64,000 bases of DNA. Source: Gemmatimonadota bacterium (GTDB lineage Bacteria; Gemmatimonadota; Gemmatimonadetes; Gemmatimonadales; GWC2-71-9). Both the position numbers and the translations under genes were made by a program. Within the stretch, counting starts at the first letter, position 1. Every line of letters begins with the position of its first letter. Under the pieces are notes generated by a model, which saw only the letters and a program-made list of their open reading frames with translations, searched no databases and was not told the origin of the DNA. The stretch is taken from the NCBI GenBank assembly GCA_003169895.1, contig PNAE01000007.1, positions 1,202,160 through 1,266,159 of the forward strand, in the 5' to 3' direction. Below are positions 37,898 to 55,101 of this stretch, piece by piece.

Positions 37898-38110
37898 ATG
37901 TCCGGTCTTCGCCCGTCTCAGGATGTCCGCCCGGTCACGGAGTTCCGGGCGAAAGCATCCGCGTTCCTGAATCAACTGCATCAAACCCGGCGCCCAGTGA
38001 TTCTTACGCAGCACGGCCGGTGTGCGGCCGTGCTCCTCGATGTGGGGGCGTACGAGGAACTGCTGGACGAGTTGTCGCAGCTCCGCGACGCGAACGGTGG
38101 CCAGTCATGA
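37898..38110 (+). CDS. Phd/YefM-like antitoxin without a toxin, first gene of the korAB-rnf operon
   Basis: 70 residues from ATG 37898 with CAGGAG upstream: DVRPVTEFRAKASAFLNQLH, then TRRPVILTQHGRCAAVLLDVGAYEELL, the complete Phd/YefM fold. The usual next gene, a RelE/PIN/Doc toxin, is absent. Instead the TGA overlaps the ATG of korA (ATGA). It may act as an autorepressor for the operon (inference). A start further upstream is not supported. Confidence 0.85.
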   Translation: MSGLRPSQDVRPVTEFRAKASAFLNQLHQTRRPVILTQHGRCAAVLLDVGAYEELLDELSQLRDANGGQS

Positions 38111-39999
38111 CCGATGCAACCGTCTCGCTGGCTGCCCCGATCGACGTACCGGCGGTCGGTTGCACCGAGCACACGATTGAAATTGTGTCCGATGCCGGCG
38201 AGGGCGCGCAGAAGTGCGGCCAGATCTTCGGTGCCGTCTCGGCCAAGATGGGCAACGGAGTCTGGACCGTCGAGATCATTCCGGCAGAGATTCAACCCCC
38301 GCCGCGAGTACCCGACGGCGCCAGCGGATACCGCATCCGCATTGGCGAGGGTCCGATCACCAATTGGGGCGACGCCACGAATCTCGCGGTGGCGTTCAAC
38401 GAGCAGGTGCTGCTGGCGCGGCACCGACTCGGGGCGCTGGCGCCGGACGCGATTCTCCTGATCGAAGACAAGTGGGCCGCGGACGACGACGCCGACGTCC
38501 GCGCGGCGTGGGATGCGGCCATGGTCGAGCTCGCGGCGTGCAACTACCGGATCGTGCCGGTGCCCATGGAAGCGGAATGCCTGGCGGTGGTCGACAATCC
38601 ACGCAAAGGCAAGAACATGTTCGCGCTGGGGATGCTGGCATGGATCTACCAGCGCGACATGGACCGGGTTCGGGATCAGATCGCCTATGCCTTCCGCAAG
38701 AAGAGCGAGACGATCTTCGAGCAGAATATCACGCTGCTCAAGCTCGGGTACGACTGGGCCGCCGACCATCTGGACTTCCGCATCGAGGTTGTGCCGGCGC
38801 CGATCACCGAGGCCCTGGTGGTGATGAACGGCAATGAAGCGCTGGGCCTCGGCGCCATCGCGTCGGGGATGGAATTGTGCGCCATGTACCCCATCACGCC
38901 GGCCACATCGGTGTCGCACTACCTGGGCGAGGTATTCGAGCGGTTCGGCGGCATCGTGCATCAGGCCGAAGACGAAATCGCGGCCGCCGGCGTTGCCATC
39001 GGTGCATCGTACGCCGGCAAGGTGGCGTTCACCATCACCTCGGGGCCCGGCTTTGCGCTCAAGACCGAATTTCTTGGGCTGGCGAGCATGATCGAAGTGC
39101 CGCTGGTGTTGATCGACGTGCAGCGCGGCGGCCCCAGCACCGGATTGCCGACCAAGGTGGAACAGTCGGACCTGCTCGCGGCGCTGTTCGGCCAGCCGGG
39201 TGACGCGCCGCACGTGATCATTGCGCCGGCCACCATTGAAGAGTGCTTCCACGTCATGATCGCGGCGCGCCGCATCGCCGAGACATTCCGCACCGTGGTG
39301 ATGGTGCTGTCGGATGCCAACCTGGCGACCGGCGTCACGCCGTTTCGGCGTCCCGTACCGGACGCCCAATGGCAGGCGGCGCCGCTCGATCTGGCGCCGG
39401 TTCCCAGCGGGCAGCGGGCATACGACTGGAATCCGGTAACCGGCCTGTCGCGCCGCGTGATCCCGGGCCAGGCGGGCGGCATGCACACGGTCACCGGCCT
39501 GTCGCACGACGAGGGCAGCAAGGTGGCCTACAGCTCCGGGGTGCACCAGCGCGGATCGGCCATGCGCAGCCGCAAGTTGGCGGTGCTGCAGAGTCTGCTG
39601 GTCGCGCCGACGGTGTATGGCGACGGCGATGGAGACCTGCTCGTCGTTGGATGGGGAAGCACCAAGGGGGCCATCGAGGAGGCGGTCGATCGGGCGCGCC
39701 AAGCGGGGCATCGCGTCTCGTCGCTTCACCTGCGGTTTCTGTCGCCGCTCGAGCCGGGCCTCAAGCAGATCTTCCGCCGGTTCCAGAAGGTGTTCACCGT
39801 CGAAATCAATTACAGCGACGAGCCCGATGATCCGTTCATCACCGACGAGAATCGGCGCCGCGGTCAACTGAGCCTGCTGCTTCGCAACGCGACACTGGTG
39901 GACGTGGACTGCTGGACGCGAGTACCGGGCGAGCCGCTGCGTCCCGGCGCGATCCTCGACGCGATCCGGGCGCGACTGCCCGGTGGAGGTGCGCCATGA
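38107..39999 (+). CDS. korA: 2-oxoglutarate/2-oxoacid:ferredoxin oxidoreductase, gamma-alpha fused subunit
   Basis: 630 residues from ATG 38107; longer upstream frames are shadows. Residues about 20-190 are the gamma domain (VSDAGEGAQKCGQIFGAV, GPITNWGDATNLAVAFNEQVLL). From about 235 comes the alpha domain: MELCAMYPITPATSVSHYL, HQAEDEIAAAGVAIGASYAG, TSGPGFALKTEFLGLA, QRGGPSTGLPTKVEQSDL. Then domain II (GDLLVVGWGSTKGAIEEAVD). This fused order is that of KorA-type OGOR. It works with the next gene (beta, thiamine diphosphate) to oxidise a 2-oxoacid and reduce ferredoxin. Overlaps both neighbours by 4 bases. Confidence 0.94.
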   Translation: MTDATVSLAAPIDVPAVGCTEHTIEIVSDAGEGAQKCGQIFGAVSAKMGNGVWTVEIIPAEIQPPPRVPDGASGYRIRIGEGPITNWGDATNLAVAFNEQVLLARHRLGALAPDAILLIEDKWAADDDADVRAAWDAAMVELAACNYRIVPVPMEAECLAVVDNPRKGKNMFALGMLAWIYQRDMDRVRDQIAYAFRKKSETIFEQNITLLKLGYDWAADHLDFRIEVVPAPITEALVVMNGNEALGLGAIASGMELCAMYPITPATSVSHYLGEVFERFGGIVHQAEDEIAAAGVAIGASYAGKVAFTITSGPGFALKTEFLGLASMIEVPLVLIDVQRGGPSTGLPTKVEQSDLLAALFGQPGDAPHVIIAPATIEECFHVMIAARRIAETFRTVVMVLSDANLATGVTPFRRPVPDAQWQAAPLDLAPVPSGQRAYDWNPVTGLSRRVIPGQAGGMHTVTGLSHDEGSKVAYSSGVHQRGSAMRSRKLAVLQSLLVAPTVYGDGDGDLLVVGWGSTKGAIEEAVDRARQAGHRVSSLHLRFLSPLEPGLKQIFRRFQKVFTVEINYSDEPDDPFITDENRRRGQLSLLLRNATLVDVDCWTRVPGEPLRPGAILDAIRARLPGGGAP

Positions 40000-40952
40000 C
40001 GGCCGCTTGTGGTCTCCTGCCGGTGCTCGATCAGGAGGAGGACACTCCGTCCTACGAAATGAGTGACTACGAAGGCGCCCGGGCGCGGTGGTGCCCGGGT
40101 TGCGGCGACCATTCGGTCCTCACCGCGGTGCAGCGATTGCTCGCCGCCGAGCAGCTCAAGCCGGAGCAGACCGTGTTCGTATCCGGCATCGGTTGCTCGA
40201 GCCGCTTCCCGCATTACCTCAGCACCTATGGGTTTCACGGGATCCACGGCCGCGCGTTGCCGGTGGCCACCGGGATCCGGTTGCACCGACCGGATCTTCG
40301 CGTGTTCGTCGTCATGGGTGACGGCGACTGTACTTCGATTGGCGCGGGGCACTGGGTTCACGCCATGCGATACAACCTCGACATGGTGGTGATGCTGCTC
40401 GACAACGCTATCTACGGGCTGACCAAGAACCAGACGTCGCCCACGACGCCGCAGGGCTTTCGCAGCAATACCCAGCCGCACGGCAGCTGGTTGCCCGCGC
40501 TCAATCCGCTGTCCGTGGCGCTCGGCGTCACCAACGCGTCGTTCGTCGCGCAGACCGCGGAATGGGTGCCGTCGCACTTGTACGCCACGTTGCGTGCTGC
40601 ATACGCCCACCGCGGCCTCGGCTTCGTGCGAATTCTCCAGCGGTGTCCCATGTACTCCAGCGCGGTGTACCAGGCTGCGGTGCAGGACCCGGCGCGCATC
40701 GGATTGCTGGTTCACGACGATGGCGTGGTTGTGCCCGACCTCGAGAAGGTCTACACCACCCAGGTAGCGCACGATCCGCACGACCTCGACGCGGCGCGCC
40801 GCCTCGCCGGCGTCACCGACCGGATTCATCTGGGCGTGTTGTTCCGCGATCCGTCGCGGCCGCGCTACGAGGAAATCCGGCGAGTAGCGCCGCGCACCGC
40901 CGAGGAGCGCTTGGTAGAGCTCAACCTGGAGCTCGATCGATATGCTGTCTGA
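39996..40952 (+). CDS. korB: 2-oxoglutarate/2-oxoacid:ferredoxin oxidoreductase, beta subunit
   Basis: 318 residues. Thiamine-diphosphate-binding features: RWCPGCGDHSVLTAVQRLL near the N-terminus and MGDGDCTSIGAGHWVHAMRY followed by LDNAIYGLTKNQTSPTT. FVSGIGCSSRFPHYL is typical of KorB. Start overlaps korA (ATGA); its end overlaps the next, unrecognised gene by 11 bases. Substrate preference cannot be fixed from sequence; OGOR is the usual assignment for this two-gene type. Confidence 0.95.
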   Translation: MTAACGLLPVLDQEEDTPSYEMSDYEGARARWCPGCGDHSVLTAVQRLLAAEQLKPEQTVFVSGIGCSSRFPHYLSTYGFHGIHGRALPVATGIRLHRPDLRVFVVMGDGDCTSIGAGHWVHAMRYNLDMVVMLLDNAIYGLTKNQTSPTTPQGFRSNTQPHGSWLPALNPLSVALGVTNASFVAQTAEWVPSHLYATLRAAYAHRGLGFVRILQRCPMYSSAVYQAAVQDPARIGLLVHDDGVVVPDLEKVYTTQVAHDPHDLDAARRLAGVTDRIHLGVLFRDPSRPRYEEIRRVAPRTAEERLVELNLELDRYAV

Positions 40953-41943
40953 TACCCGAAGGTCCCAGGCGCTGGCCGCGCTGGTCAGGCCGATCGCAGA
41001 ATTCCGCACGTTGGTGCGTGACGCACTCACTCAAGGTGAAGCGTTCCTGGCCGCGCAGACCGCTGGCGCCGATGAGCGCACCACGCAGGCGCGCGCCGAG
41101 CTGGGGCGGTTTGCCGACGGGCACATCGATCCAGCTCGATTCGCTGCCCTGTTCCCCGCGGTGCGCCGCGCCGATCCGGCCGCGCTGGCGGTTTTGCGCC
41201 AATCCGTCGACACGCTGCGCGCGCTGATCGACCGGGACACGGAGATGTTCGTGGCTGACGTACCGCCAGGCGGACAACTAGGCGACGTGGTACGGCAAGC
41301 GCTGGCGGAGCTCGGCCGGGCACTTGGCGCCGTGAGCCTGATCGAGCTGGTACGCAGCGAGCGCTACCGCGCCGGGGAGCATGAACGCTTGCTTGCGCCG
41401 GTCGAATTCCCGGCATGGAACAATGCGGCGCGGCAGGTCGCGCCGCCCCTGGTCGTAACGCTCGACGGCGCCGACTTGCACGCCGGCGCGCTGGCTCGGT
41501 TTACCGACGGCCGCGAGAAGATCGTGCTGGTGGTTCGCGGCCCGTGCGCGCCGGCGCCGCTGGTACGCTGCATCACGCCGGGCACGCTGGTGCTGCAGAC
41601 GGCGGACGGACGCGGCCTCGACCGCGTCGCGGCGTTCGACGGTCCCGCGATTGCGGCGATCGTACCCGAGGGCGCGGCCACCTTCCTGCACGATCCCGCC
41701 ACTGGCCGCGAGCCGTGGCAGCGACTGGTCATCTGGCATTCGGGCGAAGTCCCGAAGCGCGCCGTCGGCGGTGTGAGCAGCTGGCAGATGGGCGAAGAGC
41801 TCAAGCTGCTTGCCGACCAGGCCCGCACACCCTTCAGCATCCCCGGCGCAGGTGGCGTATCGTCTCCCGCGACCGGGGCCGGCGACGCTGTCGACCGGAT
41901 CGCGTCCTGGCTGCTCGGCCAGTCCGAACTGCCCAGCCCATGA
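40942..41943 (+). CDS. unrecognised protein encoded inside the korAB-rnf operon
   Basis: 333 residues, soluble, no Cys motif typical of Fe-S proteins and no clear signal or membrane helix. The N-terminal half is helical and charged (about 1-130). From about residue 160 it becomes a beta-rich region: APPLVVTLDGADLHAGALAR, then EKIVLVVRGPCAPAPLVRCI, GTLVLQTADGRGLDRVAAFD and AIAAIVPEGAATFLHDP. The C-terminus is flexible. I cannot name a family. Its start lies within the end of korB and it ends 19 bases before rnfB, so it is translated with the complex and may be an assembly, regulatory or accessory factor. Confidence 0.8.
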   Translation: MLSDTRRSQALAALVRPIAEFRTLVRDALTQGEAFLAAQTAGADERTTQARAELGRFADGHIDPARFAALFPAVRRADPAALAVLRQSVDTLRALIDRDTEMFVADVPPGGQLGDVVRQALAELGRALGAVSLIELVRSERYRAGEHERLLAPVEFPAWNNAARQVAPPLVVTLDGADLHAGALARFTDGREKIVLVVRGPCAPAPLVRCITPGTLVLQTADGRGLDRVAAFDGPAIAAIVPEGAATFLHDPATGREPWQRLVIWHSGEVPKRAVGGVSSWQMGEELKLLADQARTPFSIPGAGGVSSPATGAGDAVDRIASWLLGQSELPSP

Positions 41944-41962
41944 TGCGCTCGCGAGCCGCGCC

Positions 41963-42802
41963 GTGACCTTCCACGCGATCGCCATCCTCGGCGGGATGGG
42001 CCTGATATTCGCCGTGTTCCTCGCGCTGGCCAACCGCAAGCTCTGGGTGTGGGAAGATCCCCGCATCGATATCGTCGCGTCGATGCTGCCCAACGCCAAT
42101 TGTGGCGCGTGCGGTCACCCGGGCTGCCGTGCGTTCGCGGAGGGGACGGTTGCCGGAACGATCTCGCCGGCGGAGTGCACCGTCGCGAGCGATGACGTGC
42201 ACAAGTCGATTGCCGGCTTCCTTGGCGTTGACGCCGGCACGGCGGTGCGGAAACTCGCCCGGTTGATGTGCGCCGGCGGCAACGACGTGGCGATCAACCT
42301 GGCCGAGTATCGTGGCCTGCCAACCTGCGCGGCGGCGGCGGCGGTGGCTGGCGGTGGTAAGGGATGCGCCTGGGGATGCCTGGGACTCGCTGATTGCGAG
42401 CGCGCCTGCGACTTCGGCGCCATCGAGATGAGCGACACCGGGCTCCCGATGGTGGACCCGGCGGCATGCACTGCGTGCGGTGACTGTGTCGAGGCGTGTC
42501 CGAAGGGGCTGTTCACGCTGCTGGCGGCCGATCACCGCCTGCTGGTGCAATGCAAGAACCTGATCGCCGGTGACGACGCACTGGAACAGTGTCGCGTTGC
42601 CTGTACTGCCTGCGGCAAGTGCGTGCTGGATGGCGCCCCCGGACTGATCAGCGTCGCCAGCGGCATCGCCGTGGTCAACTACGAACTCAACGCCCTGGCC
42701 GAGGAGCGCGCGGCGGCGCGTTGCCCGACCGGGGCGATCGTGTGGCTCACCGGGGCGCAGTTCGCGCACCTGCCGGCCCTGGCCGGGAGTGAACGTCAAT
42801 GA
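41963..42802 (+). CDS. rnfB: Rnf complex iron-sulfur subunit RnfB
   Basis: 279 residues from a GTG at 41963. One N-terminal membrane helix (AIAILGGMGLIFAVFLALAN). The Fe-S (4Fe4S/ACII-type) domain NCGACGHPGCRAFAE starts with Cys47. A ferredoxin domain has CTACGDCVEACP from Cys169 and a second cluster CRVACTACGKC. RnfB takes electrons from reduced ferredoxin for the Rnf ion pump. ATGA overlap with the large oxidoreductase gene downstream. Confidence 0.93.
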   Translation: MTFHAIAILGGMGLIFAVFLALANRKLWVWEDPRIDIVASMLPNANCGACGHPGCRAFAEGTVAGTISPAECTVASDDVHKSIAGFLGVDAGTAVRKLARLMCAGGNDVAINLAEYRGLPTCAAAAAVAGGGKGCAWGCLGLADCERACDFGAIEMSDTGLPMVDPAACTACGDCVEACPKGLFTLLAADHRLLVQCKNLIAGDDALEQCRVACTACGKCVLDGAPGLISVASGIAVVNYELNALAEERAAARCPTGAIVWLTGAQFAHLPALAGSERQ

Positions 42803-45800: not shown

Positions 45801-47892
45801 CGGTGCGTGCATGGGATGCGGCGAGAAGACCGCAGTGCACCTGGTGGTGTCGGCCATCTACGCCGCGATGCAGCCGCGGGTCAAGCGGCATTTGGCACAC
45901 CTGGGCGAGTTGGTCGCCGCAATCGACGCGCAGGCGCGTGAACTCCTCGCCGCCGATGCCGACCTCGATGTCGCAACCGAGACGCGCGGGCCGTTGGCCC
46001 TGCAGATACCGACGCCCAAGCGCGAGCGACTCGAGGTCCTCAACCGGTCGCTGCACGAATTGCGGGCGCTCAAGTGGCGTTACGAATGCGGCCCGAGCGG
46101 CAAAGGGCGCGCGCCACTGGGAATGGCCAACAGCACCGGCTGCTCGTCGGTGTGGGCCAGCACCTATCCCTACAACCCGTACCCGTTCCCGTGGGTGAAT
46201 CACCTGTTCCAGGACGCGCCGTCGGTGGCCATCGGCCTCTTCGAGGCGCAGATGCGCAAGATGGCCGACAACATCGCCGTCGTGCGTCGCGCGGAGCTGC
46301 TGCAGGGCGGCAGTTACGACGCTGCCGTGCATGAAGCCGAGCTCGGCGGCCTCACCTGGACACAGTTCACCGACGACGAATTCGCACTCTGCCCGCCGAT
46401 CGTCGCCATGGGTGGCGACGGGGCGATGCTCGACATCGGGTTCCAGAACCTGTCGCGCCTGCTGGCGAGCGGGAAGCCGATTCGTGTAGTGGTGCTCGAC
46501 ACGCAGGTGTACTCGAACACGGGTGGTCAGGCGTGCACGTCCGGGTTCACCGGACAGGTGGCCGACATGTCCGCGTATGGCAAGGCCCAGCACGGCAAGA
46601 CGGAAACCCGCAAGGAAGTGTCCCTCATCGCCATCGCGCATCGCGGGGTGTACGTCCATCAGTCGTCGCAAGCCTCGGCATCACACCTGCTGGCCGGCGT
46701 GTTGAAGGGCCTGCGCAAGCGGCGCCCGGTGCTGATCAACATCTACACACCATGTCCGGTGGAGCACGGGCTGGCCGATGACTCGTCACAGCATGCCGCG
46801 CGCCTGGCCCTGGAGAGCCGTGCGTTCCCGTTCCTGACCTATGATCCGGACGCCGGTACGACGTATGCCGACGCGCTCAGCCTGGAAGGGAATCCTGCCA
46901 TCGACGAATTGTGGCCCAGCTACACCCTGCGTTACGTCGACGCGGCTGGTACCGAGCAGACGCTCGAGCTGCCGCTGACCATCGCCGACTGGGCGGCCAC
47001 CGAGGGCCGGTTCAAGCAGCACTTCACCGAGCTGCCGTCCGACGCGTCGAGCGACGAACGGACGCCGTTTCACGAGTATGTCGCGCTGAGTCCGGCGGAG
47101 CGCGAAGGGCGCACGCCCTTCATCCACGCCGTCGCCAAGGATCGCACGCTGCGGCAACTGCGGGTGTCGGCCGAGATCGTCCAGCTGGCGGAGGAACGGC
47201 TGCAGTTCTGGTCACAACTGCGCCAGCTCGCCGGACTCGAAATCGCACCCGCGGTGCGGGACGCCGTATTGAGTGAGGCGGATGCCGAGTTCGAACGGCG
47301 GAGCGGCGCACTGCGTGCGGAGTACGACGTCAAGCTCGCCGAATTGCGGACCAGCTATCCCACCCGCATCGCACGCCGTCTGGCCGAGGGACTGCTCCGT
47401 AACGCCGGTAGTTCGGTCGCGGTCGCCGAGCTTCTGGCGTCGTTGCCGCCAGTTGCGGCCCTTGCGGCGGACTCGAGCGCGCCGACCGGCGCGGCGACCG
47501 TGCCGGCTCGTGAGGCGTTCGCCGGAGCGCCAGCGCCGGTCGTGCCGACTGCTTCAGCAGCGCCGGCTGTACCGGTAGGAGCCGCTGCTGCGTCGTCGGA
47601 AGCGGCGACCGCTACGGCGGTTGCCGAGGCCGACGAGGGGCTGGTGCTGGAGGCCTACATCGACTCGGCGCGCTGCACCACCTGCAACGAGTGCACCAAT
47701 CTCAGCAAGAAGATCTTCGCCTACAACGCCGACAAGCAGGCGTTCGTGAAGGACGCGTCTGCCGGCACGTTCCAGCAACTGGTGCTTGCAGCCGAGCGGT
47801 GCCCGGTGGCGATCATTCATCCGGGCACGCCGCTCAATCCGAAGGAAAAGGATCTGGGCAAGTGGACCAAACGCGCGGCGAAGTTCAACTGA
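42799..47892 (+). CDS. nifJ: pyruvate:ferredoxin (flavodoxin) oxidoreductase-type enzyme, single chain, with extra C-terminal ferredoxin
   Basis: 1697 residues, against about 1170-1230 for usual single-chain PFOR/NifJ. In order: alpha domain with AYPITPSTQMGEGW (about residue 50); domain II; gamma domain from about 500 (GGWGAITMGKNLAMTAFELF); two [4Fe-4S] sites CTGCAQCWTQCP (about 791) and CKGCNLCVAVCP (about 926); thiamine-diphosphate domain with GDGACMGCGEKTAVHLVVSA (about 1000) and GGDGAMLDIGFQNL (about 1205) plus NTGGQACTSG; a helical stretch; an Ala/Pro-rich linker (about 1550-1615); and a final ferredoxin-like domain CTTCNECTN...CPVAIIHPG (about 1625-1680). Should reduce ferredoxin with CoA and a 2-oxoacid. 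Sits between rnfB and rnfC, an unusual place. Confidence 0.9.
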   Translation: MKLWTRGARRSAALTAPPFPGTLQALDGSGAVVAMETAAGEAAGAYPITPSTQMGEGWAAAVAEGRRNVFGRRLLFFEPEGEHAAAAVTAGMSMSGLRSTNFSSGQGIAYMHESLYAAVGKRLTYVLNIAARAITKQALNVHAGHDDYHAVDDTGFFQLFAKDVQEVADLTLIAHRIAELSLNPGICAQDGFLTSHVIESVRLPEPELIKTFLGDPADAIECPTPAQRLVFGESRRRIPEMFDLDYPAMLGVVQNQDSYAQGVAAQRPFYFDHVAPLADRAFDEYAALTGRHYARASGYQIHDAEWVIVGQGSVVANAEAVADHLRATRNLKVGVLNFTMFRPFPADVVVRLLAGKRGVVVLERTDQPLAVDAPLLREIRAAMLQGVENGRAGPANAVPHRGLLGLAPERVPDFFSGCFGLGSRDLQPADIVAAVDNMLPGGAGRRQFYLGVDFVRPNTRVPKLQIWQERLIDEYPLLSGLSLPASTSINLLPTGSTAVRIHSVGGWGAITMGKNLAMTAFELFGMHIKANPKYGSEKKGQPTTFYAVLSHEPVRLNCELKHVDVVLAPDPNVFRHSDPLQGLADGGVFVIQSDLEPNAFWQTLPAPARATIRERSIRVYVLDAFAIAREEATDAELRFRMQGAAFLGAFFRTSPLLEREGATEARLFDGIAGQLQKKFGHRGAAVVEDNLRVIRRGFAEVCEVAPGAESGVAVPGDVPRIPAALDVADAGAGVANPGRFWEQVCALCALGQDGIADPFAAISAMPAATGAVRDMSGVRMEVPLFLADKCTGCAQCWTQCPDAAIPGLVNSAEEVLAAAVSAAASGTALDGLRPVVKPWGREVQRLLAREPALAVSEAFTRGYAGAADKMGWDADRRAAIDATAGVVQARLAEFPLARTAPFFDVVEAKQKGGGGLLSVTVNPEACKGCNLCVAVCPDGALVTVKQDDATLARMRRNWALWQRLPDTDDRFVNVSDVDEGIGVLSSLLLKKGTYRSMVGGDGACMGCGEKTAVHLVVSAIYAAMQPRVKRHLAHLGELVAAIDAQARELLAADADLDVATETRGPLALQIPTPKRERLEVLNRSLHELRALKWRYECGPSGKGRAPLGMANSTGCSSVWASTYPYNPYPFPWVNHLFQDAPSVAIGLFEAQMRKMADNIAVVRRAELLQGGSYDAAVHEAELGGLTWTQFTDDEFALCPPIVAMGGDGAMLDIGFQNLSRLLASGKPIRVVVLDTQVYSNTGGQACTSGFTGQVADMSAYGKAQHGKTETRKEVSLIAIAHRGVYVHQSSQASASHLLAGVLKGLRKRRPVLINIYTPCPVEHGLADDSSQHAARLALESRAFPFLTYDPDAGTTYADALSLEGNPAIDELWPSYTLRYVDAAGTEQTLELPLTIADWAATEGRFKQHFTELPSDASSDERTPFHEYVALSPAEREGRTPFIHAVAKDRTLRQLRVSAEIVQLAEERLQFWSQLRQLAGLEIAPAVRDAVLSEADAEFERRSGALRAEYDVKLAELRTSYPTRIARRLAEGLLRNAGSSVAVAELLASLPPVAALAADSSAPTGAATVPAREAFAGAPAPVVPTASAAPAVPVGAAAASSEAATATAVAEADEGLVLEAYIDSARCTTCNECTNLSKKIFAYNADKQAFVKDASAGTFQQLVLAAERCPVAIIHPGTPLNPKEKDLGKWTKRAAKFN

Positions 47893-47899
47893 GCGGGCG

Positions 47900-49228
47900 A
47901 TGAGTTTCGCAACCGGGTTCCGGCATGGTGTCCATCCGCCGGAGGAAAAGGAGCTGACGAATCGGCTCCCGATCCGACGCATGCCGTATCCGGACGAGAT
48001 CGTGCTGCCGTTACGCCAGCACGCGGGAAACCCGGCCAAGCTGTGCGTGGCCGTGGGCGACCACGTTGAGCGCGGTGATCCGGTAGGAACTGCCGACGGC
48101 TTCATGTCGGTGCCGATTCACGCCTCGGCCGCCGGGACGGTGGCGGGCGTCGAGTGGTGGCCGCACCCTGACGGGTCCATGGCGCTGTCCGTACGCATCA
48201 CCGTGGACAAGTTTGCGCCACACGTCGCCCGGCCACGCACGGTGCCGCATTGGGAAGGGCTGACCACCGACGAGGTGGTGCTTGCCGTGCAGCAGGCCGG
48301 CGTCGTCGGACTGGGGGGTGCGGCGTTCCCCACGCACGTCAAGCTCGCGCCGCCCAAGGATCACGCGGTGCACACGCTGATCATCAACGGCGCCGAATGC
48401 GAGCCGTACCTCACGTCCGACCACCGCACCATGGTCGAATATCCGGTTCGTGTGCTGTTCGGGATCCGGGTGATGATGCGCGCGCTGGGCGTCACCAAGA
48501 GCGTGGTCGGCATTGAGCGCAATAAGCCCGATGCCATCGAGGCAATGCGCGCTGCGGTACCCGCCGACCTCGACGTGACCATCCTGCCGCTCACCGTCAA
48601 GTACCCGCAGGGCGCCGAGAAGATGTTGATCAAGGCGGTGACCGGGGTCGAGGTGCCGTCGGGCAAGCTGCCGGTGACGGTCGGCGTCGTGGTGCAGAAC
48701 GTGGGATCGGTGGCGGCCATCGCCGAGGTGTTCGAGACCGGCCTGCCGCTGGTGGAGCGGATCGTCACGGTGTCGGGGCACGGTCTGCGGCGCCCGGCAA
48801 ACTTGATCGTGCCGGTCGGCACCAAGCTGCGGGATCTGCTGGCGTTCTGCGACGGCGTGACACCCGATGCCGCCGAGGTCGTGATCGGTGGCCCGATGAT
48901 GGGTCAAGCGCAGGCCAACCTGGACGCACCGGTGATCAAGGGGACCACCGGCGTCGTGGTGCTGGCGAAGTACGAGACGCGGCTTGCCAGGTCGTATCCG
49001 TGCATTCACTGCGGGCGGTGTCTCGACGCGTGCCCAGTGTTTCTGAATCCGTCGCTGTTGGGCGATTTCGCGCGGGTTGGGCGCTACCAGGACATGGTGG
49101 AGCAGCACCTTGCCGACTGCATGCTGTGCGGTTCGTGCGCCTACGTGTGTCCATCCAACATTCCCCTCTCGCAACTCTTTCAGGCCAGCAAGGTCGCGTT
49201 GCGCCGGGCGCAAGCGGGGGCCGCATGA
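47900..49228 (+). CDS. rnfC: Rnf complex subunit RnfC (FMN/Fe-S, membrane-peripheral)
   Basis: 442 residues from ATG 47900, seven bases past the upstream stop. GFRHGVHPPEEKELTNRLPI, AAGTVAGVEWWPHPD, GVVGLGGAAFPTHVKL (the Gly-rich NADH/FMN-site region) and LIINGAECEPYLTSDHR are hallmark RnfC sequences. Two [4Fe-4S] sets follow near the C-terminus (CIHCGRCLDACP and CMLCGSCAYVCP). RnfC hands electrons to NAD+. ATGA overlap with rnfD. Confidence 0.96.
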   Translation: MSFATGFRHGVHPPEEKELTNRLPIRRMPYPDEIVLPLRQHAGNPAKLCVAVGDHVERGDPVGTADGFMSVPIHASAAGTVAGVEWWPHPDGSMALSVRITVDKFAPHVARPRTVPHWEGLTTDEVVLAVQQAGVVGLGGAAFPTHVKLAPPKDHAVHTLIINGAECEPYLTSDHRTMVEYPVRVLFGIRVMMRALGVTKSVVGIERNKPDAIEAMRAAVPADLDVTILPLTVKYPQGAEKMLIKAVTGVEVPSGKLPVTVGVVVQNVGSVAAIAEVFETGLPLVERIVTVSGHGLRRPANLIVPVGTKLRDLLAFCDGVTPDAAEVVIGGPMMGQAQANLDAPVIKGTTGVVVLAKYETRLARSYPCIHCGRCLDACPVFLNPSLLGDFARVGRYQDMVEQHLADCMLCGSCAYVCPSNIPLSQLFQASKVALRRAQAGAA

Positions 49229-50229
49229 GCGCTGCGGTTGCGCCGGCGCTGGTAGTCACGGCGTCGCCGCACGTCCGGTCACAGGATTCCACGCCGCGCA
49301 TCATGTGGAACGTGGCGGCGACGCTGGTGCCGATCATCGTGGCGGCCACGTGGTTCTTCGGCGTGAGTTCATTGCTGGTGATCGCCGCGGCAACGGCCGG
49401 CGCGCTGGCCACCGAGCGCGCATTCGGACGGGGCGGCACGCTGGCCGACGGATCGGCGGCGATCACCGGCATGTTGCTGGGCCTCACATTGCCGGCCGGC
49501 CTGTCGTTATGGATGGCGGCGCTGGGCGGTGCCTTCGGCATCGGGTTTGGCAAGGTGGTCTGGGGAGGGCTGGGCCAGAACGTGTTCAATCCGGCGCTAC
49601 TGGGTCGCGCCTTCCTGCAGGCCGCGTTTCCGGTGGCGATCACGACCTGGCCCACGGTGGGCGGACGGTTCTGGACGCTCAAGGGCGATCTGTTCGCGCT
49701 GCCGTTCACCCATCCCCTTCCCGACGCGATCACGTCAGCGACGCCGCTTGGATTGCTCAAGTTCGAAGGGAAGGGCACCGCGATCGAGCAGCTGATCCTC
49801 GGCAATACCAGCGGATCACTCGGCGAGACGGCTGCGCTGGTGATCCTCGCCGGCGGCATCTACCTGGCGTGGCGCGGTTACCTCAACTGGCGCATTCCGG
49901 CTGCGGTGCTACTCACCGTGATCGTGTTCAGCGCGATCGTCCACGCCGTCGATGCTCACCGGCCCGACCCGTTGTTCATGCTGTTCTCGGGCGGCTTGAT
50001 GCTGGGGACCGTCTACATGGCGACCGATCCGGTGACGTCGCCAGTTACCAACCGCGGTCGCTGGGTGTTCGGCGCGGGCGTGGGGGTCCTGGTGGTGGTG
50101 ATCCGCATTTGGGGCGGCCTGCCTGAGGGCGTGATGTACGCCATTCTGTTCATGAATGCGCTGGTACCGTTCATCAACCGTGCGACCCAACCCCGGCTGT
50201 TCGGCACGCGGCTCGGCGGCGCAACATGA
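49225..50229 (+). CDS. rnfD: Rnf complex subunit RnfD (covalent FMN)
   Basis: 334 residues from ATG 49225; longer upstream frames are within rnfC. Multi-helix membrane protein with LADGSAAITGMLLGLTLPAG, GGLGQNVFNPALLGRAFL and DAITSATPL. The last corresponds to the flavinylation motif (S-x-A-T), giving Thr173 as the FMN-bearing residue. C-terminal MATDPVTSPVTNRGRWVFG is also RnfD-typical. FMN attachment needs ApbE, encoded in the same operon. Confidence 0.95.
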   Translation: MSAAVAPALVVTASPHVRSQDSTPRIMWNVAATLVPIIVAATWFFGVSSLLVIAAATAGALATERAFGRGGTLADGSAAITGMLLGLTLPAGLSLWMAALGGAFGIGFGKVVWGGLGQNVFNPALLGRAFLQAAFPVAITTWPTVGGRFWTLKGDLFALPFTHPLPDAITSATPLGLLKFEGKGTAIEQLILGNTSGSLGETAALVILAGGIYLAWRGYLNWRIPAAVLLTVIVFSAIVHAVDAHRPDPLFMLFSGGLMLGTVYMATDPVTSPVTNRGRWVFGAGVGVLVVVIRIWGGLPEGVMYAILFMNALVPFINRATQPRLFGTRLGGAT

Positions 50230-50903
50230 CGGTCGTGCACCAGCACCAACACGGTGCGCCCGTGGCAGTCACGCCGGGCAAGGCCACACCGACCTGGCGG
50301 CTGCTGGTCACGCTGGCAGTGGCGGGCGGGCTGTCGGGGTGGCTGGTGGTGACGGTTTACCAGATCACACGGCCGGCGGTCGAGCGATATGCGGCGCAGC
50401 GGGTCGCGGGCGCGGTGCGCGAGGTGCTCGAACGTCCGGCGCGGTGGGACACGCTCTATCTGGTCAATGGTGCACTGGTGTCCAAGGCTCCGGCCGGCCC
50501 GAACGCGCAAGAACTACCAATCGCGTACGTGGGATACGACGCGACGGGCAAGCGGATCGGTGCGGCGGTCACCGCGGCGGAACCGGGGTTCCAGGAATTG
50601 CTCACGCTGATGATCGGCTTCGATCCGGAGAGCGGCGCGTTGCTGGGATTCAAGGTGCTCGACGAGAAGGAGACGCCCGGGCTGGGCGACAAGATCGAGA
50701 CCGATTCGTCGTTCCGCACCCAATTCGCCGATCGCCTCCCGCCACTTACCGGCGTGAAGGGCCACCCCGGCGGCAATCGCAACGAGGTGCAGACGATCAC
50801 CGGGGCGACCATCTCGTCGCGGGCGGTGATCCGGATCGTCAATCATGCAGTGGCGAAGTGGCGGCCGTTGCTTCAGGCTTACCACGCCGGCGGCGCGCCG
50901 TGA
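50226..50903 (+). CDS. rnfG: Rnf complex subunit RnfG (covalent FMN, periplasmic)
   Basis: 225 residues. One N-terminal membrane helix (LLVTLAVAGGLSGWLVVTVY). FMN-binding domain: LLGFKVLDEKETPGLGDKI and a TITGATISSRAV motif in which Thr195 would carry FMN. It has an ATGA overlap with rnfD and a GTGA overlap with rnfE. Its N-terminal tail is His-rich (HQHQHG), a minor oddity. Confidence 0.95.
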   Translation: MTVVHQHQHGAPVAVTPGKATPTWRLLVTLAVAGGLSGWLVVTVYQITRPAVERYAAQRVAGAVREVLERPARWDTLYLVNGALVSKAPAGPNAQELPIAYVGYDATGKRIGAAVTAAEPGFQELLTLMIGFDPESGALLGFKVLDEKETPGLGDKIETDSSFRTQFADRLPPLTGVKGHPGGNRNEVQTITGATISSRAVIRIVNHAVAKWRPLLQAYHAGGAP

Positions 50904-51583
50904 CCGCCGTGTCAGTCGAAGCGCCGCCCCCGGCGGCTCCGGCGATGGTTCCCGGTGCACCGCCACCGGCCACGGTCATCGCCGACATGTGGCGCGGCAT
51001 CGGCCGCGAAAACCCGGTGCTGGTGCAGTTCCTCGGCATGTGTCCCACGATGGCGGTCACCAACACCCTGGCCAACGGGATCGCGATGGGCGCCGCCACG
51101 ACATTCGTGCTGGTGGGCTCCGGGCTGTTTGTGTCGCTGTTCCGCAAGTACATCGCGCACGAGGTCCGGATCACGTCGTACATCCTGATCATCGCGACGT
51201 TCGTCACGTTGGCCGACATGATTCTCGCGGCGACGTTCCCGGCGATCAGCAAGGCGCTCGGCCCGTTCATGCCATTGATCGTGGCGAACTGCCTGCTCCT
51301 CGGGCGCGCCGAAGCCTTCGCCGCCAAGGTGGCGGTGCATCGCGCGGTCGCCGACGGGCTGGGCATGGGGCTCGGCTTCACGCTGTCACTGTCCCTGCTC
51401 AGCGCACTGCGCGAAACCCTTGGCCATGGCAGCCTGCTGGGTCACCCGTTGTTCGGGCCGCGGTTCGAGCCATGGGTCTTCATGGTGATGCCGCCCGGCG
51501 GGTTCTTCGCGCTGGGCGTGGCGCTGCTCGCACTGGCATGGATCGTTGAGCTGCGGCGGCGGCGGGTACGGGCGGTCGCATGA
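50900..51583 (+). CDS. rnfE: Rnf complex subunit RnfE (membrane)
   Basis: 227 residues from GTG 50900 (GTGA overlap with rnfG); much longer upstream frames are shadows. An Ala/Pro-rich N-terminal extension of about 25 residues precedes GIGRENPVLVQFLGMCPTMA, the conserved RnfE entry with its Cys, and six membrane helices. Pairs with RnfA in the Fe-S-containing ion/electron path of the complex. Confidence 0.93.
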   Translation: MTAVSVEAPPPAAPAMVPGAPPPATVIADMWRGIGRENPVLVQFLGMCPTMAVTNTLANGIAMGAATTFVLVGSGLFVSLFRKYIAHEVRITSYILIIATFVTLADMILAATFPAISKALGPFMPLIVANCLLLGRAEAFAAKVAVHRAVADGLGMGLGFTLSLSLLSALRETLGHGSLLGHPLFGPRFEPWVFMVMPPGGFFALGVALLALAWIVELRRRRVRAVA

Positions 51584-52158
51584 GCAACCTGGCATGGATC
51601 TTCGTCTCGACGCTGCTGGTCAACAACTTCACGCTGGTGATGTTCCTCGGTCTCTGTTCGTTCTTCGGCGTCACGGCCAAGATCGAGACCGCGTGGCGCC
51701 TGGGATTGGCCAACACGTTCGTGCTGCTGCTCACTGCCATCTTCGCATGGCTGCTCAACACTTTCGTGCTGGGTGCCGCGCCATACCTGCGCATTGTGGC
51801 GTTCATCGTGGTGATCGCATCGGCGGTGCAGTTTGTCGAGATGGCGGTGCGGAAGTACCTCCCGGTGCTGTTTCGCCAGCTGGGGATCTACCTGCCGCTG
51901 ATTACGACCAACTGCGCGATCCTTGGCCTGGCGCTCTTCCAGACCAGCCGGCACTACACGCTGATCGAGGGTCTGGTGTTCGCGATCGGCGCCGGGCTGG
52001 GTCTCACGCTGGCGCTGTCGTTGATGGCATCCATTCGCGAGCGGATCGAAGTCGCCGACGTGCCGCGGATCGCCCGGCGCATGGGCCTGGTGCTGGTGAT
52101 CGCGTCGTCGCTGTCCATGGCGTTCATGGGATTTGCGGGCATGGGGAGTGCGCCGTGA
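51580..52158 (+). CDS. rnfA: Rnf complex subunit RnfA (membrane)
   Basis: 192 residues, six membrane helices. LLVNNFTLVMFLGLCSFFGV near the start and LITTNCAILGLALF around residue 107 hold the two conserved Cys that coordinate the intramembrane [2Fe-2S] cluster shared with RnfE. ATGA overlap with rnfE; GTGA overlap with the small Cys-rich gene. Confidence 0.95.
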   Translation: MSNLAWIFVSTLLVNNFTLVMFLGLCSFFGVTAKIETAWRLGLANTFVLLLTAIFAWLLNTFVLGAAPYLRIVAFIVVIASAVQFVEMAVRKYLPVLFRQLGIYLPLITTNCAILGLALFQTSRHYTLIEGLVFAIGAGLGLTLALSLMASIRERIEVADVPRIARRMGLVLVIASSLSMAFMGFAGMGSAP

Positions 52159-52304
52159 AACAGACCATCATTGCCGTGGTGCTCGGCGCCGCGCTGTTCG
52201 TGCTGTTCGGCCTGATGCCACATCGTGGGTGTACCGGGCATTGTGCGGGATGCACCGGGTCGTGCGGGCGTCATGAAGAAGACGGAGACCAGCATGTCGA
52301 ATGA
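52155..52304 (+). CDS. 49-residue Cys-rich membrane peptide in the rnf operon
   Basis: GTG 52155 overlaps the rnfA stop (GTGA). The peptide has one N-terminal membrane helix (TIIAVVLGAALFVLFGLM), then RGCTGHCAGCTGSCGRH, four Cys in CxxxCxxCxxxC spacing, then an acidic His-containing tail. It resembles the FeoB-associated Cys-rich small proteins in layout, but I do not recognise it as a known Rnf subunit. Possible roles: metal or Fe-S delivery, or an extra redox centre beside RnfA/E. It is in-frame, coupled and overlapped by apbE, so likely real. Confidence 0.68.
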   Translation: MKQTIIAVVLGAALFVLFGLMPHRGCTGHCAGCTGSCGRHEEDGDQHVE

Positions 52305-53286
52305 TTTCTTCCGGCGTCATCCGACGCGACGGGAGTTCCTCACCGTCGGCTCCGGCATCTTCGTCGCCCTTTCGATGCCGCTGGCGCTGCGGCGGCGGAT
52401 GCCGCTGGTCCGGCGCTCCTTTCCGCTGATGGGAACGATCGCCGAGGTGCAGGTTGCGCATCGGGACGAGCGGTTCGCGGAAGCTGCGATCGATGCGGCC
52501 CTCGTCGAGCTGCAGCGCGTCGAGCGGATGATGACCCGTTTCCGCCCGGACTCCGATATCGGCCGCGCCAATCTTGGCGCCGGACGTGAGGGAATCGCGG
52601 TCTCCGCGGAGACCGCGTTGGTGATCGAGACGGCGTTGCACTGGTCGTCGGTGAGCGACGGCCGCTTCGACCCGGCAATCGGCGCCGCGTCTGAGCTGTG
52701 GGACGTGCTGCACCGCCACGAACCGCCGCCGGAGGAGCGGGTCGATCGGCTCGCCTCGCGTGGCTTCTGGCGGAAGGTGGACATCGCGCAACACGGCGGT
52801 GCGCCGGCGGTGCGCTACGAGGATCGCGACCTGCATCTCGACCTGGGCGCCATCGCCAAGGGCTACGGCGTCGATCGCGCCGTGGCCGTGCTGCGTGCCC
52901 GCGGCGTTGGGCACGCCATCGTCACGGTCGGCGGCGACCTGTATACACTGGGAGAATCGCCCGAAGGTGGCCCCTGGCGCGTGGGAATTCGATCACCGCA
53001 CGACCATAACGCCCTGGCGGCCACTCTCGAAGTCGCCGATCGTGCCGTTGCGACGTCGGGTGACTACGAGCGGTTCTTCCGCTGGCACGGGCAGGTTTAT
53101 CACCACCTGATCGATCCCGCCACCGGGGCGCCGCGACGTACGCCGATGCACAGCGCCACCGTGCTGGGCGCCGACTGCATGAATGCCGACGCGGCGGCAA
53201 CGGCGGTGTTCGGCTTGCCGCACGATGCGGCGCTCCGAGTAGTGCGCCGCAGGATCAGCGGTGCAGAGGTCATTCCGTTGACGTAA
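52294..53286 (+). CDS. apbE: FAD:protein FMN transferase ApbE
   Basis: 330 residues from ATG 52294 with GGAG six bases upstream; ATG 52273 is possible. Twin-arginine-type signal (HPTRREFLTVGSGIFVALSM) sends it to the periplasm. ApbE features: FPLMGTIAEVQVAH, RFRPDSDIGRAN, GRFDPAIGAASELW, LDLGAIAKGYGVDRA, VTVGGDLYTLG and HHLIDPATGAP. It transfers FMN to Thr in RnfD and RnfG, so the operon carries its own maturation enzyme. Confidence 0.95.
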   Translation: MSNDFFRRHPTRREFLTVGSGIFVALSMPLALRRRMPLVRRSFPLMGTIAEVQVAHRDERFAEAAIDAALVELQRVERMMTRFRPDSDIGRANLGAGREGIAVSAETALVIETALHWSSVSDGRFDPAIGAASELWDVLHRHEPPPEERVDRLASRGFWRKVDIAQHGGAPAVRYEDRDLHLDLGAIAKGYGVDRAVAVLRARGVGHAIVTVGGDLYTLGESPEGGPWRVGIRSPHDHNALAATLEVADRAVATSGDYERFFRWHGQVYHHLIDPATGAPRRTPMHSATVLGADCMNADAAATAVFGLPHDAALRVVRRRISGAEVIPLT

Positions 53287-53305
53287 CGAGGAAGAGGGGG
53301 ACGAC

Positions 53306-53659
53306 GTGGAGAGTCATCAGTTGTTTTGCAGCGCCTGCGACCGCGAGGTTCGCGTGTTGATCACGCCGGCGCTGAACGAGCAAGGCCAGGCGGTCCTGCA
53401 CGATTCCGAAGTGGTCTGTCTCGACATCGGGTCGCGATGCACCGGCAACATGTGTCCGCTCGGCGCGGCCGAGCCCAACGCCATGGTGGCGCGCATCATA
53501 CGGAACGGCATTCCACTCGATACGCTGTCGACGGTGCAGTCGCGCTGCCCCGCCTGCGACAACGACGTGGAAATGGTCCTCTACGGCGAGGGTCGTGCGG
53601 CGTGTTCGATCTGTGGCACGGCCGCTCGGTGGGTGGTGGATCACGTCGAGCTGACGTAG
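53306..53659 (+). CDS. zinc-ribbon protein of unknown function
   Basis: 117 residues. Cys pairs CSACDREV at the N-terminus, CTGNMC in the middle, and CPACDNDV with CSICGTAA at the C-terminus suggest two zinc ribbons or metal sites. The segment between (about 25-80) is not recognisable. It is last in the rnf operon, 19 bases after apbE, and a strong palindrome follows, so it may belong functionally to the complex. Confidence 0.75.
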   Translation: MESHQLFCSACDREVRVLITPALNEQGQAVLHDSEVVCLDIGSRCTGNMCPLGAAEPNAMVARIIRNGIPLDTLSTVQSRCPACDNDVEMVLYGEGRAACSICGTAARWVVDHVELT

Positions 53660-53687: not shown

Positions 53688-53900
53688 GCGGGATCGTCGA
53701 ACCAGACCAGCAGCCTGGGCTGCCCGCCCGCGGCTGGCCGGAAAGAATCCTGCGAGTCGACCGGTCCCGCCAGCGTGGCACCATCTTGCCGGTATCAACC
53801 CCGGCGCGTACCTTCGCTCTCAATCCCCCAATAGCTCGGCGTGCCGCGCTCCCGCGATGCAGCGACCGACAACTCGATGAGCCCGCGTGGCGGAGCAGAC

Positions 53901-54458
53901 ATGATCCGGCGAACGCTGCTGCTCGCCTTGCTCGTGCCGCGGCCGGTACTGGCGCAGGCACCGAAGGTTGGGAAGCCAGCATCTGATTTCGCCCTGGCCG
54001 CGCTCGACCGCGGCACCACGAAGGTGCGTCTTTCCCAGCTCAAGGGCCATCCGGTCGTGATTTCGTTCTGGGCCAGTTGGTGTCCGCCCTGCCGAAGGGA
54101 GATGCCCGAGCTCTCCGCCGCGTACACCGCATACCGAAGCGCCGGTCTCGAAGTGCTCGCGGTAAACGAAGAGGCGCTCAAGGTCGACGAGAAGGGCCGT
54201 GCGGTGTACCGGTCGAACCAGGAGCACCGGAAGAGATTGAAGGAGTTCGTGGAAGAGATCGCGATGCCATTCCCGGTGCTGCTCGACGACGCCGAGGGCC
54301 GCGTGTGGTCGCGGTACGGGTCGCCGATCCTACCCGCGATGCTGTTCGTCGATACTGCCGGAATCGTGCGGGCGATGTACTACGAGGGTCTGGTCACTTC
54401 GGATTCACTCGCGAAGGGCCTGCGGGCGATCCTGTCACCCGCAACGTTTCGACCTTGA
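53901..54458 (+). CDS. TlpA-like thioredoxin-fold protein (exported)
   Basis: 185 residues from ATG 53901 with GGAG upstream. Signal peptide IRRTLLLALLVPRPVLAQ. Thioredoxin fold with catalytic WCPPC (FWASWCPPCRREMPEL) and the cis-Pro region PILPAMLFVD. Such proteins reduce cytochrome c heme cysteines or other periplasmic thiols. An insert DEKGRAVYRSNQEHRKRL is unusual. Followed by a second TlpA-like gene. Confidence 0.92.
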   Translation: MIRRTLLLALLVPRPVLAQAPKVGKPASDFALAALDRGTTKVRLSQLKGHPVVISFWASWCPPCRREMPELSAAYTAYRSAGLEVLAVNEEALKVDEKGRAVYRSNQEHRKRLKEFVEEIAMPFPVLLDDAEGRVWSRYGSPILPAMLFVDTAGIVRAMYYEGLVTSDSLAKGLRAILSPATFRP

Positions 54459-54582
54459 AACTCCGGAGTTGCGTGTTACGTCGGACGGCGACAGAAGGTT
54501 GATGTCGTAGGCGCAATCATACGGCGATAGCAGCAACTCGGTCCCCCGCCGAGGGTCAGGAGTCATATGGCAGGGAGCGCTC

Positions 54583-55101
54583 GTGCCCGACTGGATTGTG
54601 CTGCGAAGAATCCTCCTGGCGATCGTCGTGCTGATCGCACCGGCCGCCCATGGCCAGGATGTGAAGGTCGGTCAGCGCGCCCCGGACTTCACGTTGTCGA
54701 TCCTGGATGGTGACTCGGCGCATCTGGCCCAATTTCGCGGGCATCCGGTGGTGCTGAAGTTCTGGGCTTCGTGGTGCCCCACGTGCCGGACCGAGATGCC
54801 CGAACTCGCCGCGGCACAAGCCGCTCATGGCGACGTCGGACTTGAAGTGCTCGCCAGCAACGGCGAAGAAACGCCGGACAAGATGCGAAAGTACCTGGCG
54901 AGGCTGGCGATCGGCGCTGGTTTGATCGTGCTGGTCGATCCCAAGGCACACGTGAGTCAGCGCTATCGCGTCCTTGTGCTGCCCACGACGGTGTTCATCG
55001 ACAGCGCTGGAGTTGTGCAAGTGATTCATCCCGGTGCGATCAGCCCGACGGAATTTGCTGACGGTATCCGGGCGATTCTACCCATCCACAACCAGGAGTA
55101 G
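54583..55101 (+). CDS. second TlpA-like thioredoxin-fold protein
   Basis: 172 residues from GTG 54583 with GGGAG upstream. Signal/anchor LLAIVVLIAPAAHGQ, redox motif WCPTC (FWASWCPTCRTEMPEL) and cis-Pro YRVLVLPTTVFID. A shorter paralogue of the upstream protein. It lies three bases before the outer-membrane-barrel candidate, so the two are probably co-transcribed. Confidence 0.92.
   Translation: MPDWIVLRRILLAIVVLIAPAAHGQDVKVGQRAPDFTLSILDGDSAHLAQFRGHPVVLKFWASWCPTCRTEMPELAAAQAAHGDVGLEVLASNGEETPDKMRKYLARLAIGAGLIVLVDPKAHVSQRYRVLVLPTTVFIDSAGVVQVIHPGAISPTEFADGIRAILPIHNQE

Follow-up and report, generated by a model that had tools for sequence, protein, structure and literature searches.

Two types of 2-oxoacid:ferredoxin oxidoreductase encoded with a complete Rnf complex in a conserved gene block of Gemmatimonadota and other phyla

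Gene content and layout of the block

A compact block of fourteen genes was found in a Gemmatimonadota bacterium (GenBank assembly GCA_003169895.1, contig PNAE01000007.1), within the window, that is, the whole stretch of 64,000 nucleotides that was analysed. It encodes KorAB, a 2-oxoacid:ferredoxin oxidoreductase (OFOR) of the 2-oxoglutarate type (OGOR), a second OFOR of the pyruvate:ferredoxin oxidoreductase (PFOR) type with a ferredoxin domain at its C-terminus, and all six Rnf subunits, RnfA, B, C, D, G and E (Table 1). The gene between korB and rnfB, which an earlier sequence-only reading had listed as unknown, is referred to below as the partner gene. That reading placed fourteen genes on one strand in the order of Table 1, apbE among them, and all were recovered as described. 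The names of korA, korB, rnfB, C, D, G, E, A and apbE were upheld by scans against Pfam and NCBIfam, in which the partner protein and the Cys-rich peptide of the window had no match. The two POR_N domain genes of this block were the only ones in the genome (3.42 Mb, 13 contigs).

Most junctions were 4-bp overlaps (phd/korA, korA/korB, rnfB/PFOR, rnfC/D, D/G, G/E, E/A and A/Cys peptide). The partner gene overlapped korB by 11 bp and was separated from rnfB by 19 bp. The gap was 7 bp between the PFOR-type gene and rnfC and 19 bp between apbE and the zinc-ribbon gene. The Cys peptide gene overlapped apbE by 32 bp or 11 bp, depending on the apbE start (ATG 52273 or ATG 52294). From korA to the zinc-ribbon gene the junctions ranged from -32 to +19 bp, with 4-bp overlaps the commonest.

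Table 1. Features of the block, with positions in the window
Feature	Position	Strand	Basis or remark
Phd/YefM-type antitoxin-like gene, 70 aa	37898..38110	+	PF02604 7.7e-13; probably non-core
korA, fused gamma-alpha OFOR subunit, 630 aa	38107..39999	+	TIGR03710
korB, thiamine pyrophosphate/[4Fe-4S] beta subunit, 318 aa	39996..40952	+	TIGR02177 9.5e-71
Partner ("unknown") gene, 333 aa, degenerate paralogue without thiamine pyrophosphate motif	40942..41943	+	Profiles and predicted fold
rnfB, 279 aa, GTG start	41963..42802	+	Family scans
PFOR-type 2-oxoacid oxidoreductase-ferredoxin fusion, 1697 aa	42799..47892	+	Pfam domains; 6cin/1b0p homologues
Post-TPP alpha/beta domain of PFOR-type enzyme, residues ~1340-1480	46816..47238	+	Predicted structure
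52-residue helix (1484-1535), short helix and flexible linker (~1549-1613) of PFOR-type enzyme	47248..47637	+	Predicted structure
C-terminal single-cluster [4Fe-4S] ferredoxin domain of PFOR-type enzyme, 1616-1697	47644..47889	+	Fer4_13; Foldseek 1fxr
rnfC	47900..49228	+	TIGR01945 514 bits, cut-off 246
rnfD	49225..50229	+	TIGR01946 312 bits, cut-off 207
rnfG	50226..50903	+	TIGR01947 101.7 bits, cut-off 102; PF04205
rnfE	50900..51583	+	NF009070 216 bits, cut-off 184; TIGR01948 200 bits, cut-off 213
rnfA	51580..52158	+	TIGR01943 216 bits, cut-off 229
Cys-rich one-helix peptide, 49 aa	52155..52304	+	Position after rnfA, transmembrane stretch and Cys cluster
apbE flavin transferase	52273..53286 (start 52273 or 52294)	+	PF02424 3e-78
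Zinc-ribbon-like protein, 117 aa, CxxC pairs	53306..53659	+	Sub-threshold DZR_2

RnfC and RnfD exceeded their TIGR cut-offs and RnfE that of the RsxE family (NF009070); RnfG fell 0.3 bit short. RnfA and RnfB scored below their own cut-offs, yet their best-scoring models were Rnf-type. The 20 cysteines of RnfB leave room for about five [4Fe-4S] clusters. The Cys pairs of the intramembrane [2Fe-2S] cluster were intact in RnfA (C26/C112) and RnfE (C48/C131), as were the S/T-x-A-T flavin sites of RnfG (TGAT 192) and RnfD (TSAT 170). In its six subunits, intact motifs and B-C-D-G-E-A order the locus resembles the Rnf complexes of Bacteroidetes and Chlorobi (rnfBCDGEA). It differs in the 5-kb PFOR-type gene inserted between rnfB and rnfC and in the korAB and partner genes in front.

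After rnfA, nearly all of 47 loci, distant phyla included, had a short open reading frame whose product has a single hydrophobic stretch and four or more cysteines. Relatives of the window peptide matched PF12669 weakly, below its cut-off. In the nqr operon of Vibrio cholerae, apbE and a gene for a small Cys-rich membrane peptide likewise lie 3′ of the pump genes, and NQR requires this peptide, NqrM, to have its intramembrane cluster (PMC12174285). The window peptide differs in having had no sequence match to NqrM in the family scans, in which NqrM itself was not queried. By analogy, it is a candidate Rnf [2Fe-2S] maturation factor that would probably help to insert the RnfA/E cluster.

Conserved linkage and co-occurrence with Rnf

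The PFOR-type protein served as query against 150 genomes of the phylum and against GTDB genomes, and the window proteins were then mapped onto the loci found. One of the six patterns used in the GTDB search lay within the ferredoxin tail, so that this set is biased towards tailed copies; the 150-genome search is free of this bias. In 82 of the 85 loci that could be judged, rnfC came after the tailed PFOR-type gene, and in 86 of 99 this gene had rnfB in front. The 13 loci without rnfB in front comprised ten from Bacteroidota, several of them Marivirga, Algoriphagus or Fulvivirga, together with two stand-alone relatives and one operon remnant. The Bacteroidota loci that were long enough read PFOR-rnfCDGEA...rnfB-korA-korB-partner, the same gene set in a changed order. 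Genes that have been re-ordered and still lie together are a stronger argument for function than a frozen order. A comparison of gene order around rnfC in related genomes, which the sequence-only reading had proposed as its own check, thus found the order kept in most of them and the genes re-ordered but together in Bacteroidota; the strong form of the objection, that homologous genomes lack the arrangement, failed. Chance or misassembly was likewise ruled out, since the arrangement recurred in dozens of assemblies that are independent of one another, some of them complete genomes.

Loci were recovered from Gemmatimonadota, Bacteroidota, Acidobacteriota, Hydrogenedentota, Calditrichota, KSB1, Planctomycetota and Pseudomonadota. 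The PFOR tree grouped them mostly by phylum, with 10 label changes against a minimum of 8. The zinc-ribbon gene was kept 3′ of apbE in several Gemmatimonadota loci.

Within the phylum, rnfC exceeded its cut-off in 32 of the 150 genomes. In the class to which the window belongs, a tailed PFOR-type gene was present in 26/26 Rnf-positive and 2/118 Rnf-negative genomes (Fisher p ~1e-26, a figure that is indicative only, the genomes being related). The remaining 6 of the 32 belonged to another class and had a canonical Rnf cluster, with RnfC identity of 43-44% and, in the four that were fetched, no adjoining OFOR genes. As for the two Rnf-negative carriers, a contig edge fell inside rnfC in one (G130), and the other (G038, L121:9114-13712) held the operon remnant. 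Its PFOR-type gene ended at about residue 1525 and ran directly into the zinc-ribbon gene; the ferredoxin tail was lost, and the rnf and kor genes were gone. An internal TGA was reported in this match. Stand-alone relatives of the PFOR-type gene in three genomes (L118-L120; G054, G078 and G134) shared ~40% identity, were ~1,590-1,640 aa long and lacked both rnf genes and tail.

Three loci showed further variations. A second rnf cluster adjoined the PFOR-Rnf operon at L050:21454-25148 and at L093:1-4863, the latter preceded by the end of a partner-like paralogue gene. At L090:9405-17048 the order was broken, as it rarely is, by ~7.6 kb of other sequence between the PFOR-type gene and an rnfC.

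The ferredoxin tail and the partner gene after korB

Pfam recognised POR_N, PFOR_II, POR, 4Fe-4S, thiamine pyrophosphate (TPP) and Fer4_13 domains in the 1697-aa enzyme. The PFOR domain set was complete, including two [4Fe-4S] clusters and a TPP domain with its GDG...NTGGQ motif. Thr49 and Arg132 aligned with Thr31 and Arg114 of the PFOR of Desulfovibrio africanus, its pyruvate-holding residues; among eleven loci compared, one (L047) had another residue in place of the Arg. The enzyme thus shares with the single-chain PFORs of D. africanus and Moorella (1b0p, 6cin) the domain order I-II-gamma-2x[4Fe-4S]-TPP and the Thr and Arg of the carboxylate site. It is about 500 aa longer, with inserts around the cluster domains and, after the TPP domain, an additional domain, a helix, a linker and a domain like ferredoxin I.

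An AlphaFold2 model of residues 1340-1697, built from 64 sequences (pLDDT 86), consisted of a compact alpha/beta domain, the 52-residue helix, about 65 residues of low confidence and a well predicted ferredoxin domain. The sole significant Foldseek match was D. africanus ferredoxin I (1fxr; root-mean-square deviation 0.8 Å over 58 columns, TM score 0.85), which also ranked first in the VIA list for the tail region. The four cluster cysteines of the tail were invariant across the 64 sequences. The domain shares its fold and single [4Fe-4S] site with this ferredoxin, which comes from the same organism as the best-studied PFOR, and differs in being covalently joined to the enzyme through the helix and linker. 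Fold searches with the post-TPP region returned match lists taken up by ferredoxins. The stand-alone relatives shared the sequence of the PFOR-type enzyme up to about residue 1480, and so had the post-TPP domain as well. Electrons would pass from the internal clusters to the mobile ferredoxin domain and on to RnfB. In three Bacteroidota genomes (L125-L127; G165, G175 and G160) the relatives were split, for example into proteins of ~656 aa and ~548 aa, perhaps an ancestral unfused state.

A PFOR with a fused acceptor is known from Euglena and Cryptosporidium, where pyruvate:NADP+ oxidoreductase is a PFOR fused to an NADPH-P450 reductase module. It resembles the present enzyme, on our reading, in that the fused module makes free ferredoxin dispensable. 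There the acceptor is a flavoprotein serving NADP+, whereas here it is a ferredoxin that would be aimed at a membrane ion pump.

KorA scored 519 bits with TIGR03710, above the cut-off of 483, and possessed the YPITPAT motif; its closest solved chain was 6n2n_A. For KorB the best family was PorB_KorB (TIGR02177), and since its 238.6 bits lie under the cut-off of 261.9, we call it KorB-type. Its cysteines 33, 36, 67 and 217 and its GDG and NxxYGLT motifs were intact, and 5b48_B, 5b46_B and 6n2n_B were the closest solved chains. The fused gamma-alpha subunit and the beta subunit with four cluster cysteines are as in 6n2n, StOFOR and HpOorDABC. Unlike these, KorAB is accompanied by a dead paralogue of the PFOR-type enzyme and by no gene for an OorD-type ferredoxin. 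Archaeal OFORs of the KorAB kind also accept pyruvate.

This paralogue is the partner protein. A profile of its family matched PFOR-type proteins from other loci where the TPP domain begins (about residues 1160-1254), and hhalign aligned its residues 119-269 with residues 1148-1365 of the PFOR-type enzyme (P 2e-5, 150 columns), passing over the NTGGQ stretch. Its fold was predicted with pLDDT 90 and pTM 0.82. The best VIA matches of this model were PFOR TPP domains (6cio, Z 8.3), followed by oxalate oxidoreductase and PorB beta subunits; a Z near 8 is weak if taken alone, and Foldseek returned no significant match for it. Together, the profile matches, the hhalign alignment and the predicted fold rule out an orphan protein whose fold is unknown. 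The case for a TPP-domain paralogue rests on the VIA matches and the sequence profiles, with the Bacteroidota copies decisive. In Algoriphagus the gene after korB encodes 737 aa. Its product matches the PFOR-type enzyme of the same genome over 517 residues (29% identity, E 1e-70), and the match takes in the ferredoxin tail, but the TPP motif is lost. Among four full-length or near-full-length copies examined, those of Algoriphagus and Bryobacteraceae had a tail and those of Marivirga and another Acidobacteriota genome had none. The TPP/Mg2+ motif GDG...N is missing from most of the family: Bacteroidota copies have DKG or DQK and no NTGGQ, and 38/45 short copies lack any GDG. Sequence and model together indicate that the partner is paralogous to that half of the PFOR-type enzyme which contains the TPP domain, and that it has degenerated and is catalytically dead.

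The partner gene followed korB in all 53 testable loci (44 by direct match, 9 as the long form). At seven korA or korAB loci outside such operons, in the same phylum and mostly in operon-bearing genomes, no partner adjoined. The paralogue is therefore specific to Rnf-linked korAB in this sample, and we infer that it acts as an adaptor. The partner might instead act as a pseudo-beta subunit, regulating KorAB or the PFOR-type enzyme or keeping either stable, without any role in Rnf docking. A TPP-domain fold that lacks the GDG and NTGGQ motifs would suit such a role, and degenerate structural subunits are common among thiamine enzymes. We nevertheless consider this unlikely, as it does not account for the tail kept in the Algoriphagus and Bryobacteraceae copies or for a partner found only with Rnf-linked korAB. 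The tailed copies point to electron transfer in the ancestral form of the protein.

Proposed function and metabolic context

We suggest that the block encodes one redox module, in which both 2-oxoacid enzymes feed Rnf through a tethered or docked ferredoxin and so conserve energy. Judged on sequence and models, this is the probable explanation. KorAB, of 2-oxoglutarate type, and the PFOR-type enzyme, with its pyruvate-binding residues kept, would decarboxylate 2-oxoacids oxidatively to acyl-CoA. The PFOR-type enzyme would hand the electrons to its own C-terminal ferredoxin, whose long helix and linker would let it reach RnfB. KorAB, which has no ferredoxin tail, would be served by the partner in the role of an adaptor or docking subunit. 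This putative adaptor still has its own ferredoxin tail in Algoriphagus and in one genome of Acidobacteriota; the window's copy is shortened and probably brings KorAB into contact with either the ferredoxin carried by the PFOR-type enzyme or Rnf. With RnfG and RnfD flavinylated by ApbE, Rnf would pass the electrons to NAD+ with ion pumping, and the drop from about -500 mV to -320 mV would be conserved. In pyruvate dehydrogenase (PDH) and 2-oxoglutarate dehydrogenase (OGDH), the drop from about -500 mV to NAD+ is released as heat. The electron path, the physical contacts, the direction, the substrates and the coupling ion of the module are what we infer from the gene set.

The conserved linkage, the fused ferredoxin domain and the korAB-specific paralogue support the module well. 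The sequence-only reading, which had drawn a line from 2-oxoacids through ferredoxin to Rnf, is borne out in these features, and its interpretation as a whole is partly supported. More tentatively, the block may build a single assembly in the membrane, where enzymes that sit on Rnf oxidise pyruvate and 2-oxoglutarate: an ion-pumping 2-oxoacid:NAD+ oxidoreductase whose electrons move by way of the tethered ferredoxin and the inactive adaptor, with no free ferredoxin; we regard this stronger version as possible but doubtful. If true, PDH and OGDH would have in it a "pumping" counterpart in aerobic or facultative bacteria of several phyla. If both steps went by way of Rnf, the tricarboxylic acid (TCA) cycle would yield more energy and the oxidation of carbon would be coupled directly to an ion pump, in bacteria that have genes for terminal oxidases as well. 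With its tethered ferredoxin and a duplicated, inactivated enzyme half that may have been recruited as adaptor, the block is also a testable case of substrate-level electron channelling, and one testable now, as there are cultured carriers among Marivirga, Algoriphagus and Fulvivirga isolates.

Several observations weigh against the module. The PFOR-type enzyme scored 408 bits with the PFOR equivalog TIGR02176, far under the cut-off of 911; we therefore named it PFOR-type, PFOR being too strong. The loci of Hydrogenedentota, KSB1 and Calditrichota showed no korAB in the vicinity of the PFOR-Rnf set; korAB is therefore not obligatory. Carriers were mostly metagenome-assembled genomes, and binning errors may lie behind some of the phylum labels. 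The operon was absent from genomes of the same genus and patchy within the class. Finally, this genome has an OGDH gene, as do nearly all its relatives, and several E1 genes of PDH or branched-chain 2-oxoacid dehydrogenase type, so flux through the module is conjectural. The presence of OGDH rules out the operon as its replacement. Together with the PDH-type E1 genes and the COX1-family genes, which were found in 21/21 carriers tested, it marks the operon as a route parallel to these dehydrogenases, in organisms that have terminal oxidases.

The same context would suit an ordinary anaerobic backup, in which the two OFORs substitute for PDH and OGDH under fermentative or micro-oxic conditions, their clustering reflects co-regulation only and the carrier is free ferredoxin. 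OFORs are usually oxygen sensitive, and the operon stands beside OGDH and PDH-type genes and is patchily distributed. This reading leaves unexplained the fused ferredoxin and its linker, the loss of the tail together with rnf in the remnant, and the dead paralogue specific to korAB, and we think it improbable on balance.

The module could also run in reverse, Rnf spending the ion gradient to reduce the tethered ferredoxin with NADH while acetyl-CoA and succinyl-CoA are carboxylated to pyruvate and 2-oxoglutarate. Its role would be anaplerotic, or a partial reductive TCA cycle, in oxygen-respiring cells. The two carboxylating steps of that cycle that depend on ferredoxin are those of PFOR and OGOR, the oxidative step is covered by OGDH, and COX1-type genes in all carriers tested mean that the gradient could be sustained. 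Rnf1 of Azotobacter operates in this direction for nitrogenase (PMC12174285). This genome and most carriers lacked isocitrate lyase, and such a lack could be taken as a mark of reductive use. However, the enzyme exceeded its cut-off in 5/28 carriers and in 35/116 other genomes of the class, so its absence is not clearly associated with the operon and that argument was set aside. A search for ATP-citrate lyase gave nothing to weigh, its control having itself matched nowhere. We hold reverse operation to be the least likely of these alternatives, and oxidative operation of the module remains our preferred reading.

As regards the coupling ion, the ATP synthase c subunits that could be read had no obvious Na+ (E-S/T) signature. 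This genome has two different genes for F-type c subunits (C8:1725479-1725658 and C8:1078042-1078230), suggesting two ATP synthases.

Rnf, OGOR and PFOR are each known; what appears not to have been described is their conserved combination, the ferredoxin tail of this PFOR-type family and the dead paralogue. Searches of open-access papers brought up no report of an rnf operon that contains PFOR or OGOR genes, an absence there that is not proof of novelty, and the reports on Melioribacter and Caldithrix mention plain rnf operons without OFOR genes. The sequence-only reading had known of no standard locus with both kinds of oxidoreductase; this agrees with the literature searched, but in public genomes the locus is widespread.

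The reading had also included the phd-like gene in the operon, where it is not conserved and probably not core: outside the window, the gene was present at one other locus only (L033). No toxin gene was noticed adjoining it (37898-38110), and it is possibly a regulator. A promoter scan gave no signal above chance level. Just 3′ of the operon, at 53841-55101 of the window, lie genes for two neighbouring TlpA/thioredoxin-like proteins with CPPC and CPTC motifs.

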